Source: Haloquadratum walsbyi J07HQW2 | Lineage (GTDB): Archaea > Halobacteriota > Halobacteria > Halobacteriales > Haloferacaceae | Length of the DNA: 41,750 nt | Assembly: GCF_000415985.1 (NCBI RefSeq) | Contig: NZ_KE356561.1 | Coordinates: 2,181,179-2,222,928, forward strand | Reading direction: 5' to 3' | Shown: one piece after another, positions 35,874 through 41,750 of the stretch | Layout of the letters: the number at the start of each line of letters is the position of its first letter | Numbering within the stretch: the first letter of the stretch is position 1 | The notes under the pieces: generated by a model | Seen by the model: only the letters and a program-made list of their open reading frames with translations | Database searches by the model: none | Told to the model about the DNA's origin: nothing | Position numbers and translations under genes: made by a program

Positions 35874-36956
35874 TTATAGATCTGCACCAATGGCTGACTC
35901 GATTGAATCAAATCCATCATCCTTGAGCAATTGGAGCAACCCTGCATTAATATCACGAGCAAGTGTCGGTCCCTGATACACTAACCCAGTATATAACTGC
36001 ACGAGGCTTGCACCCGCTCGAATCTTTGCGTATGCCCCTGCTGCGTCACTTACTCCACCAACACCAATAATAGGAACATCTGTCCGCTCTGCAACGGCTC
36101 GCACTAATCTTGTTGCTTGATCTTCGAGTGGTGCACCTGAAAGTCCTCCACGCTCTCCTTGCTTGACGGATTCAAGACTCTCAGGACGCTCTGTAGTCGT
36201 ATTGGTCGTTATCACCCCATCAAGATTAAATATATCAACAAGATCCATAACATCTTCAACTGCACCGAAAGAGAGTTCTGGTGCAAGCTTCACTAACACC
36301 GTTTCTGCGCCAGCATCGGTGAGTGCATCTATAATCCTGCTGAGCGAATCACGCTGTTGTAGCTCCTGCATTCCCTCACTGTTTGGACATGATACGTTGA
36401 CTGCAACATAATCGGCACCTTCTGCGATCTGTTTATATGTATACTGATAATCTGCTGGCGCCTCGTCAGTTGGTGTTGATTCCGATAGTGCAATATTCAC
36501 ACCAATTGGACCATCGTAATCAATCTCACGCCGATGATTGGACAATCGCTCACCAATCACATCTGCACCGTGATTATTCAACCCCATCCGATTAATCAAT
36601 GCTTCATCCTCTACCAGCCGAAACATCCGAGGACGTCCATTTCCTGACTGTGCTACAGCAGTAACCCCACCCACCTCTACATGTCCGAATCCAAGCGCTC
36701 CAAGAATACTAGGCAACTCAGCGTTTTTATCAAATCCAGCTGCGACACCTACAGGATTATCAAATGACTGCCCAAACGCTTCAACTTGGAGACGATCGTT
36801 ATCAACCCGAAACTGATTGCTAAAACCACGTTCAATTGGTGTCTGCTGGACAGTCTCTAACCCAGTGTGGACAAGCCGATGGGCTGTTTCTGGTGGTAGC
36901 GCAAATAACACTGGTCGAAACGCGCGATAAAGCTGTCTAATTACCACCTCGGACAC
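35874..36956 (-). CDS. pyrD: Dihydroorotate dehydrogenase PyrD, class-2-like
   Basis: This 360-residue FMN enzyme oxidises dihydroorotate to orotate in pyrimidine synthesis. The N-terminal helices (IRQLYRAFRPVLFALPPETAHRLVH) and the motifs GVAAGFDKNAE and RLVEDEALINRMGLNN are those of quinone-linked class 2 enzymes that sit on the membrane. The active-site loop reads VNVSCPNSEG, so the position of the class 2 catalytic serine is Cys190, as in class 1 enzymes. FMN phosphate contacts (GVGGVSDAAGAY) are present. It is a stand-alone gene, convergent with valS. Confidence 0.92.
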   Translation of the reverse strand: MSEVVIRQLYRAFRPVLFALPPETAHRLVHTGLETVQQTPIERGFSNQFRVDNDRLQVEAFGQSFDNPVGVAAGFDKNAELPSILGALGFGHVEVGGVTAVAQSGNGRPRMFRLVEDEALINRMGLNNHGADVIGERLSNHRREIDYDGPIGVNIALSESTPTDEAPADYQYTYKQIAEGADYVAVNVSCPNSEGMQELQQRDSLSRIIDALTDAGAETVLVKLAPELSFGAVEDVMDLVDIFNLDGVITTNTTTERPESLESVKQGERGGLSGAPLEDQATRLVRAVAERTDVPIIGVGGVSDAAGAYAKIRAGASLVQLYTGLVYQGPTLARDINAGLLQLLKDDGFDSIESAIGADL

Positions 36957-37037
36957 CCCAACAGAATATTCGAATGCAGATACGAATCTACGAATACGTG
37001 TAAATACATATGAAACTCTATAGACCTCATTAGTTAT

Positions 37038-37235
37038 TCAAAAATCGTGTTCAACTGATTCTGGGTTGGCCTTTTGAATGATGATCTTCCCATCTCGGAC
37101 CCGCACGAATACCTCATCACCAATCTCCATCCCAGCAACGGTGAGCTCATCCTCATGTAGATTTACATGAACATTATGATACTCGCCATTTTCATCTTTC
37201 GCGCCACTTGGGCTAAGCTTCTTTTTCCGGACCAT
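37038..37235 (-). CDS. Small beta-rich protein, possibly AbrB-like
   Basis: The 65 residues start MVRKKKLSPSGAKDENGEYH, then beta-strand-like segments NVHVNLHEDEL and MEIGDEVFVRVRDGKIIIQKA. The last part (GDEVFVRV ... GKIIIQK) resembles the swapped-hairpin AbrB/SpoVT fold. A DNA-binding role is possible but unproven. It lies 81 bases upstream of pyrD on the same strand and may be co-transcribed with it. Confidence 0.7.
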   Translation of the reverse strand: MVRKKKLSPSGAKDENGEYHNVHVNLHEDELTVAGMEIGDEVFVRVRDGKIIIQKANPESVEHDF

Positions 37236-37599
37236 CGCGGGTATCTACGCTGAGACTCACCGTAGCGCATACATAAGTGTTGTTTATACACGATGAAAAT
37301 ATCTCTACATGCAGGTGACAAATCTGAGCTATCCGAAACCGGATCTATTTTCTGGCTAAACCCTTCTGTGGCTCATCACTTCTTGACCTATATGAGCAAT
37401 CCAGACCCGCTGTCATACTATATTCACATAGCTAAGGCGGAGTAAACGAACCAGCCATGTTCTCACCTATTATTTATCATCGACGAATAAAATCATCAGA
37501 CAAGCAAGACATATACTGATATTATGAGGAGTATCTGTTTTACTAATATCGAAGTACTGTACTGCTGCTTGATATGACTAACAACGATCTATAAACTGT

Positions 37600-37668
37600 T
37601 GCGCGGTCGGAGGCCGACACATCATCCCTCGCATTGGACGGTCGGTCAGATCGGGTAATAACCGCGCA
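37600..37668. ncRNA. Candidate structured RNA element
   Basis: TGCGCGGT (37600-37607) pairs perfectly with ACCGCGCA (37661-37668). Inside it GGCCGAC (37612-37618) pairs with GTCGGTC (37641-37647) with one G-U. The element is GC-rich against an AT-rich background. It matches no RNA family I know and is not a tRNA. It could be a leader structure for the mini-ORF at 37695 or an independent small RNA. Confidence 0.35.
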
Positions 37669-37694
37669 TTATCAACTCATTGGAGGGCACTCAA

Positions 37695-37781
37695 ATGCAT
37701 ATCGACACTCATGCACGCAGAAATACACGAGGTAATCGACTCTATCCTATTATCACCAACATTACCGATCAAATACACTGA
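37695..37781 (+). CDS. Possible 28-codon mini-gene with a Shine-Dalgarno
   Basis: The frame opens MHIDTHARRNTRGNRLYPII and ends at TGA 37779-37781. GGAGG (37682-37686) lies 8 bases upstream, a rare feature among starts here. The basic composition is unlike the acidic neighbours, so chance is quite possible. Confidence 0.2.
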   Translation: MHIDTHARRNTRGNRLYPIITNITDQIH

Positions 37782-37842
37782 TCGTATGATTCATAAAAAA
37801 GCCTACTCACCACAGTTATCACGTGTGTGCGCACCCATTCAC

Positions 37843-38169
37843 TCACTCAAGATGCTCAATCTCTTGCTTTGAAACATTTCCTTTGGTGACTGTTGATATC
37901 TCACCTTCCATCCAATCAGGCTTATCATTGGGTGCATCGTCCATCCATGCCCATGCATGATAGACGTGTATACGATCTGTCCCACGTTCAAGCAATCTGA
38001 TTTTTGTTGGATTACTCTTAGCTGCAGACTCGTTTTCATACTCATCATATCCTTCCAGTCGCCGTGCAGCCTTCAACGCTGCCTGCCTTGGCATTCGTCC
38101 AGTAAACTGTCGGGTCTTTTCACCATCTTCGAGCATCACGAAATTTCTTTTTCCGTCTTCACGTACCAT
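37843..38169 (-). CDS. Non-histone chromosomal protein MC1
   Basis: This 108-residue protein begins MVREDGKRNFVMLEDGEKTR and has the MC1 core TGRMPRQAALKAARR and IRLLERGTDRIHVYHAWAW. MC1 bends DNA sharply and helps organise the chromosome in Methanosarcina and haloarchaea. The frame is open upstream to 38256, but that part crosses the TATA box and is not MC1-like, so the start is ATG 38167-38169. It is the gene nearest the rRNA operon and is transcribed away from it. Confidence 0.92.
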   Translation of the reverse strand: MVREDGKRNFVMLEDGEKTRQFTGRMPRQAALKAARRLEGYDEYENESAAKSNPTKIRLLERGTDRIHVYHAWAWMDDAPNDKPDWMEGEISTVTKGNVSKQEIEHLE

Positions 38170-38202
38170 GGTCACGTACCCTATGTCACGCGAGCACACA
38201 AT

Positions 38203-38220
38203 ATAATATAAATATATCGG
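38203..38220 (-). promoter_or_regulatory. Promoter of the MC1 gene
   Basis: On the minus strand CCGATATATTTATATTAT gives a strong TATA box about 39 bases before the ATG, implying a leader of roughly 10-14 bases. Confidence 0.6.
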
Positions 38221-38274
38221 CGTAAATTCGCTCTGTAACACGGTTTTCACTGTCATACCGTCTAATTATAACAA

Positions 38275-41517: not shown

Positions 41518-41750
41518 TGGCTACTGTACTGGCTGGTGAATGGCTCGGCTCGAGAGCCGATGACGGACGTGCCAAGCTGCGATAAGCCTGAGGGAGCCGC
41601 ACGGAGGCCAAGAACTCAGATCTCCGAATGGGAATCCCCACTGCAATTGCATCTCGCAATAGGGACGCCCCGAATTGAAACATCTTAGTAGGGCAGAACA
41701 GAAAGCACCGCGATATCGTTAGTAACCGCGAGTGACACGACCTAGTCCAA
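41518..41750 (+). rRNA. rrl: 23S ribosomal RNA, 5' part
   Basis: From about tggctactgtactggctggt the sequence follows the archaeal 23S 5' end. Conserved stretches include gacgtgccaagctgcgataa, gggagccgcacggaggc and gttagtaaccgcgagtga. The gene runs past the window edge. The exact 5' end is uncertain by a few bases. Confidence 0.93.

Follow-up and report, generated by a model that had tools for sequence, protein, structure and literature searches.

A probable box H/ACA guide RNA, with 23S U2572 as its likely target, beside the ribosomal RNA operons of Haloquadratum walsbyi and other haloarchaea

The window, by which we mean the whole 41,750-nt stretch of Haloquadratum walsbyi J07HQW2 DNA analysed here, is haloarchaeal and ends in an archaeal 16S - tRNA-Ala - 23S operon. 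The 23S gene of this operon ends after 239 bases within the window, at a run of 100 N that follows directly in the assembly (after position 41750; G000:C1 after 2222928). A gap of about 600 bases is flanked by two minus-strand genes, one AbrB-like (37038-37235, with a MazE/AbrB match that falls short of the Pfam cut-off) and the other encoding the chromosomal protein MC1 (Table 1). The first-pass annotation had described a nested GC-rich hairpin in this gap, and all of the items that it described could be located. The outer stem, formed by TGCGCGGT (37600-37607) and ACCGCGCA (37661-37668), is the perfect 8-bp helix claimed. The inner stem, GGCCGAC (37612-37618) with GTCGGTC (37641-37647), is present with its 7 pairs, but one of them is G.U and the helix is not perfect as had been stated. 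Further along are a GGAGG (37682-37686) and an ATG (37695) that opens a frame of 28 codons plus stop, ending at 37781.

These letters are as described, but the mini-ORF is not conserved. Among 15 same-genus sequences, the ATG is in place in three (the window, L009 and L010), followed by frames of 28, 15 and at least 34 codons, respectively, and a GGAGG in the 19 bases preceding the ATG is found in the window only (1/15). In these 15 sequences we could not detect a conserved ORF after a ribosome-binding site, the arrangement of a regulated mRNA leader with a small peptide gene. Searches of the hairpin itself were also negative: no family in Rfam 15 reached the gathering score at the hairpin place in the window or in 15 further loci (L009-L023), and neither the tRNA finder nor the phage records gave a match to the element.

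Folding energy is unremarkable on the plus strand (z -1.21, with 24 of 200 shuffles folding equally well) and gave z -1.53 on the minus strand (14 of 200). The hairpin stands above chance because of its conservation, with copies in 15 other genomes and covariation in 76 sequences, and not because of its folding energy. Conservation of the pairing in relatives had been named beforehand as one half of the test by which the finding could be refuted; the pairing is conserved, and the finding survived this half. The conserved fold consists of the outer stem and a different inner helix, not the 7-bp inner stem described first.

Those 15 genomes came from a DNA search of 60 relatives, in which the matches mostly cover the hairpin alone. 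A covariance model built from 16 sequences (R1) matched 260 of 391 genomes of the class, in 68 of 86 genera, at E <= 0.001, nearly always with one copy per genome; the window's own genome has one copy at E <= 1. R2, a model of the minus strand that had more training sequences than R1, the window's copy among them, matched 287 of the 391 genomes (279 of 377 good ones) in 76 of the 86 genera at E <= 0.01, where E-values close to that limit, as in G020 and G024, are possibly due to chance. The R2 match for the window gene (G000:C1:2218772-2218845, minus strand) has an E-value of 1.9e-15. The 104 genomes without an R2 match include all sampled genomes of genera g13 and g38; none of the 287 matches came from g13, g16, g19, g38 or g66, and g5 contributed a single genome (E 0.0015). 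When genomes of these and similar groups were searched with laxer filters, 13 gave matches with E 0.05 at best and the rest, outgroup aside, gave none at E <= 1. A pattern scan of named genomes returned 43 stretches, in genera that include Halobellus, Halogeometricum, Halococcus, Halomicrobium, Halovivax and Natronococcus, and also in Actinarchaeum halophilum.

For covariation, 76 copies (75 distinct) were aligned, comprising the window's copy and 75 fetched loci. When the alignment was fitted to the R1 structure, 96.1% of the pair cells held and 11 of 16 pairs had changed on both sides. When the minus strands were realigned with MAFFT, with a structure taken from the same family, 94.2% of 1360 cells were paired, 13 of 18 pairs had changed on both sides, and the covariation score was.360, compared with.160 +/-.008 when alignments were shuffled and no more than.094 when partners were slid. 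Outside the hairpin, the flanks of all 76 loci taken together contain no additional consensus structure.

Read on the minus strand, this fold has the layout of an archaeal box H/ACA RNA. The published features of that class, also drawn here from PMC2584109, are a stem, an internal loop and a second stem, the lower stem being 7-9 bp (PMC4652768); an ANA (ACA) box that follows the lower stem on its 3' side, at 14-16 nt from the pair closing the pocket (PMC4652768, PMC7991803); an upper stem with a K-turn or K-loop, which has G.A pairs and a bulge of 3 nt and in Haloferax stands 8-10 layers away from the pocket, 10 layers being taken as the productive length (PMC4652768); and two pocket strands complementary to the target on both sides of U-N, by at least 3 bp each (PMC7991803). 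The element has every sequence feature tested, that is, the hairpin, the ANA box, the K-turn and a target-complementary pocket (Table 1). In the lower stem, 98.5% of the cells are paired and five of the seven pairs changed on both sides within the family; in the upper stem, five of the six pairs form in the window genome, one of them U.G, and five of six changed on both sides. The distance from the pocket-closing pair to the ANA box is 14 nt in all 76 copies. The 3' guide strand reads CCUCC in 72 copies and UCUCC in four. By a hand count on the minus-strand alignment, about 9 layers separate the pocket from the K-turn, one below the productive 10. The window genome also carries a Cbf5 gene. 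That the hairpin RNA belongs to the archaeal box H/ACA guide RNAs is, judged from these features, close to certain, and the earlier remark that no known family fits holds for Rfam but not for this class.

Table 1. Predicted elements of the minus-strand RNA gene, and the adjoining MC1 gene. Coordinates are window positions; n = 76 copies for family counts.
Feature	Position	Strand	Remarks
Box H/ACA-type guide RNA gene, 74-nt model	37594..37667	-	5' end 37667, 3' end ~37594
Lower stem P1, 5' strand	37661..37667	-	pairs with 37601-37607, 7 bp
5' guide strand of pocket (UAUUAC)	37655..37660	-	pairs with GUGA of 23S: C-G, A-U, U.G, U-A
Upper stem P2, 5' strand	37649..37654	-	pairs with 37614-37619
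K-turn, 5' strand GACC	37644..37647	-	GACC in 71/76
K-turn, 3' strand GG-GAU-GA (3-nt bulge, tandem G.A)	37622..37628	-	G.A/A.G 74/76; bulge U 72/76
3' guide strand of pocket (CCUCCG)	37608..37613	-	pairs with GGAGG of 23S
Lower stem P1, 3' strand	37601..37607	-	covariation
ACA box	37597..37599	-	ACA 38, AUA 34, other 4
Promoter -10 position	37677..37677	-	A in 75% of loci
TATA-box core (TTT)	37693..37695	-	-26 to -28; base frequencies.67-.79, 76 loci; consensus scan
BRE (CGATA)	37700..37704	-	-33 to -37; CGAAA + TTWT consensus peak at -37, z 5.7
MC1 chromosomal protein gene	37843..38256	-	Pfam PF05854, 7.4e-40; adjoins the RNA in 58/75 other loci

On the plus strand, the bases that follow the hairpin are also conserved among the 76 loci, with T at +10, AAA at +26 to +28 and T.TCG at +33 to +37. 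Written as the minus strand, the same bases are CGANA at -37 to -33, TTT at -28 to -26 and A at -10, and the haloarchaeal BRE, TATA and -10 elements are CGAAA, TTWT and WW (PMC4983044). A scan of 140 offsets with that consensus, which is independent of the present data, had its minus-strand peak at exactly -37, scoring 6.04 of 9 (mean 2.56, sd 0.61). The promoter elements thus lie at the spacing of a minus-strand gene, and transcription would therefore be expected to begin on that strand with the first G in the lower stem. The ATG described first overlaps the TATA-box core. What had been read as a Shine-Dalgarno sequence and a mini-ORF is, by these sequence signals, the predicted promoter of a minus-strand RNA gene, and the locus illustrates the trap of mistaking one strand's promoter for a ribosome-binding site and ORF of the other.

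The same data bear on a regulatory or ribosome-binding sRNA of the plus strand, whose GGAGG could contact the 16S anti-Shine-Dalgarno. GGAG is invariant on that strand, and the counts of G.U versus A.C alone left the strand unsettled. However, the K-turn, the ANA box, the spacing and the promoter all fall on the minus strand, and none of the 140 offsets gave a plus-strand consensus peak at promoter distance: the best, at +14 (5.70, z 4.7), falls within invariant bases of the hairpin itself and could not serve this RNA from there, and the next is at -12 (4.57, z 3.0). Weak members also score better with R2 than with R1 (for example, G018 at 1.0e-11 versus 1.1e-4), R2 having been trained on more sequences. 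We regard a plus-strand sRNA as scarcely credible. A related reading, in which the invariant GGAG and TCAT serve as a ribosome-binding site or pseudoknot, was dropped; the flanks fit a minus-strand promoter and an ANA box. The proposal of an RNA gene distinct from its AT-rich surroundings appears to be right, then, for the strand other than the one proposed. Its alternatives fared worse: a tiny peptide gene would have its GGAGG and ATG within the RNA gene's promoter, and a regulated leader would have to serve the next minus-strand gene, the AbrB-like one, which begins 359 bases on, whereas the RNA carries a promoter signal of its own and an ANA-box end.

Could the hairpin be part of some other transcript, such as a structure in the MC1 mRNA 3' UTR or in the pre-rRNA leader? 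Among the 75 other loci, the RNA follows MC1 in the same orientation in 58 and precedes 16S, likewise in the same orientation, in 52, and in three genomes outside the class (G423, G414 and G425) the related RNA lies 150-260 nt upstream of 16S, again on the same strand. But MC1 was not found by tblastn beside the RNA in 17 of the 75 loci, and in the window MC1 lies between the RNA and 16S, to which the RNA is on the opposite strand. Together with the promoter signal of its own, this makes membership in another transcript very unlikely.

We propose instead that complement(37594..37667) is a single-hairpin box H/ACA guide RNA that directs the formation of a pseudouridine at 23S U2572, a reading we hold with considerable confidence and in which transcription, RNP assembly and modification are predictions. 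The RNA would start at its own BRE/TATA promoter and end shortly after the ANA box. As in the known class, L7Ae would bind the K-turn, and Cbf5-Nop10-Gar1 would assemble on the lower stem, the ACA box and the upper stem. The pocket would hold the 23S rRNA with GGAGG against the 3' guide CCUCC and GUG(AG) against the 5' guide, and the U between the paired segments (E. coli 2572) would be converted to pseudouridine.

The target was implied by the conserved pocket (CCUCC; CAC/CAU) as GGAGG-UN-GUGRU before any valid 23S scan. Each guide from 15 other carrier genomes was then compared with its own 16S and 23S. The top site, in canonical geometry, was 23S AAAGGAGG-UC-GUGAGC, which fits in 13 of the 15 species at at least 4 + at least 3 bp (.87); the second-best site reached.60 in a shifted geometry. 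Of the 11,739 uridines scanned under a strict rule (5 Watson-Crick pairs plus at least 3), 23S U2572 alone matched, and it did so in 11 of the 15 species. None of 100 column-permuted guides reached.86, the best attaining.60, but 20 of 100 random fixed (invariant) guides scored at least.86 at some site when the lenient rule was applied, and in one species 153 of 2000 random guides rich in pyrimidines matched a site by the strict rule. Guide and target form a short duplex, of 5+3 to 5+5 bp in the species that fit; in the other two (L213 and L214) a single base of the 5' guide pairs. With so short a duplex, and with random guides also finding matches, complementarity alone is therefore suggestive and not proof; on the sequences, U2572 is the likely target. 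The window genome holds the site at G000:C1:2238647. A 23S target pattern that leaves two bases of GGAGG open was found in 306 of the 391 genomes; among the matches listed, all read GGAGGTC and none is from genus g13.

An unlikely alternative is that the RNA is an H/ACA guide with a different real target, in a tRNA, an mRNA or elsewhere in rRNA, or that it has a non-guiding role. The shortness of the U2572 duplex speaks for this, as do the H. volcanii tRNA pseudouridines 22, 28 and 52, which have no known guide (PMC2584109), and a partial match to 16S U993, with a 3-nt spacer, in.38 of the 76 guides when compared with the window's 16S. Against each species' own 16S, however, U993 fits only.13 of the 15 species versus.87 for 23S U2572, and GGRGG-UN-GUG is absent from the 29 distinct tRNAs examined (30 of 45 tRNA matches). 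Three GGRGGT-type matches were found at SRP and RNase P loci, all in the flanks and none in the RNAs. Potential mRNA targets were covered by a genome-wide count of the pattern GGAGGTNGTG, which gave 23 matches versus 29 in a reversed control. The 16S positions U24, U273 and U993 were dropped as targets, as were tRNA, SRP and RNase P.

For the numbering of the target, the third U of GGGUUUA is taken by us to be E. coli 2586. Counting 14 bases back from it, with 2586 equated to H. marismortui 2621 (PMC2584109), places the target U at E. coli 2572, or about 2607 in H. marismortui numbering. This U adjoins the peptidyl transferase centre. U2572 of 'H50S' has been described as a nucleotide of the second shell, where it restrains U2504 and hence antibiotic binding (PMC4652758); we take 'H50S' to be the haloarchaeal large subunit, in agreement with the U2572 numbering. 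The modification state of U2572 would then bear on the reading of haloarchaeal ribosome structures. The 23S pseudouridines tabulated for H. marismortui in PMC2584109 are 1956, 1958 and 2621, and 2607 is absent from that table. The guide, matched in 287 of 391 sampled genomes, predicts a further pseudouridine at one exact place in 23S. In H. volcanii, Cbf5 can be deleted (PMC7991803), so that H/ACA dependence could be tested there if this species carries the RNA. In g13, g38 and other genera, there is no convincing RNA match, yet many genomes match the 23S target pattern. It is possible that guide and modification were lost in lineages such as g13 and g38.

Related RNAs were also found in genomes of the same phylum outside the class: G423 (E 9.0e-8), G414 (4.1e-4), G425 (0.0088) and G416 (0.0092), the last two being identical RNAs and both weak matches. 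All four (L255-L258) lie about 150-260 nt upstream of 16S on its strand, and perhaps this outgroup RNA belongs to the pre-rRNA leader and is cut from the pre-rRNA itself. The 23S of G423, G414 and G425 has GGAGA in place of GGAGG, and in their 3' guides a U replaces the C opposite the changed base. This co-change is one-sided, in that a guide U pairs with A but also wobbles with G; indeed, the four haloarchaeal guides with UCUCC also have U at the facing base, and in the two that were checked the target reads GGAGG. For G423 and G414, pairing involves only 3 bases of the 3' guide and 6 of the 5' guide; the guide strands of the three genomes were delimited by hand, with a one-base skip in G414 and a one-layer shift on both sides in G425. 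We tentatively suggest, at somewhat less than even chances, that an unmapped guided pseudouridine exists at haloarchaeal 23S 2572, whose nucleotide keeps U2504 positioned behind the peptidyl transferase centre, that the outgroup guide resides in the 5' leader of its own target rRNA, and that the haloarchaeal guide has since become a separate gene beside the operon. If this is true, the outgroup rRNA transcript brings its own guide for its modification.

The haloarchaeal hairpins HP1 and HP2 (Hvo1, Hvo2) presumably go by the name sR-h45. Two H/ACA hairpins are described in H. volcanii, one for 2621 and one for 1956/1958 (PMC2584109, PMC4652768). The present RNA resembles them in having a stem, pocket, K-turn and ANA box, in being haloarchaeal and in its likely 23S target, but its pocket pairs at only 0-1 (3' guide) and 0-2 nt (5' guide) with the sites of Psi2621 and Psi1956/1958 in 15 of 15 species. 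It would be a third haloarchaeal H/ACA guide beside two described hairpins with three 23S pseudouridines. It could be among the 106 candidate motifs mentioned for H. volcanii intergenic regions in PMC4652768, where the data are not shown. In the open literature, subscription papers and supplements aside, we found no description of the present gene or of the 2572 site in haloarchaea, and the RNA appears to be a new, widely distributed guide of a known class. P. abyssi Pa35.1 is similarly an H/ACA guide for a 23S site, L2672, 13 nt before L2685 and numerically at or beside the same place, L2672 and E. coli 2572 being likened by numbering alone. Few features shorter than 150 bp could be mapped in the transcriptome of H. 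walsbyi (PMC5496347).

Another conserved predicted small RNA, H. volcanii sRNAH225.2R (HVO_1727s2), lies between HVO_1727 and the 16S gene HVO_1728 (PMC3956466, PMC4983044). The rRNA operon beside it has orc5 and the gene of a TATA-binding protein as neighbours (PMC7824242, PMC2841640), unlike the MC1-pyrD neighbourhood of the present RNA. The sRNA listed in PMC3956466 (Table 1) lies just upstream of a 16S gene and may represent rRNA leader rather than a separate sRNA. Its likeness to the present RNA, as a conserved small RNA beside 16S, is one of location. From the 16S coordinate, we assume that it lies within 200 nt of that gene.

The usual gene order around the element is 16S (divergent from the element's plus strand), element, MC1, AbrB and pyrD. 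Among the 75 loci besides the window, many of which end at a contig end, the neighbours are 16S in 52, MC1 in 58 (by tblastn), AbrB in 58 and pyrD in 45. In the window (at 35874-38256), L009 and L010, AbrB and pyrD lie on the opposite side of the RNA compared with 56 and 43 other loci, respectively; the fetched stretches of L009 and L010 exclude 16S. It seems that in these three a block comprising the H/ACA RNA and MC1 has been inverted between the rRNA operon and AbrB-pyrD. A plus-strand motif from expectation maximization, GTCATGCG.TTTCA (37/76), was set aside as belonging by its appearance to the rRNA promoter side and not to the RNA gene. Many loci carry a conserved GTCATGCGGTTTCATG-like motif upstream of the element on the plus strand, at about -50 to -170, and some also have TACATAAAA..CGTCGAA in the same interval. 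Both resemble what we take to be the distal rRNA promoter and start region on the opposite strand.
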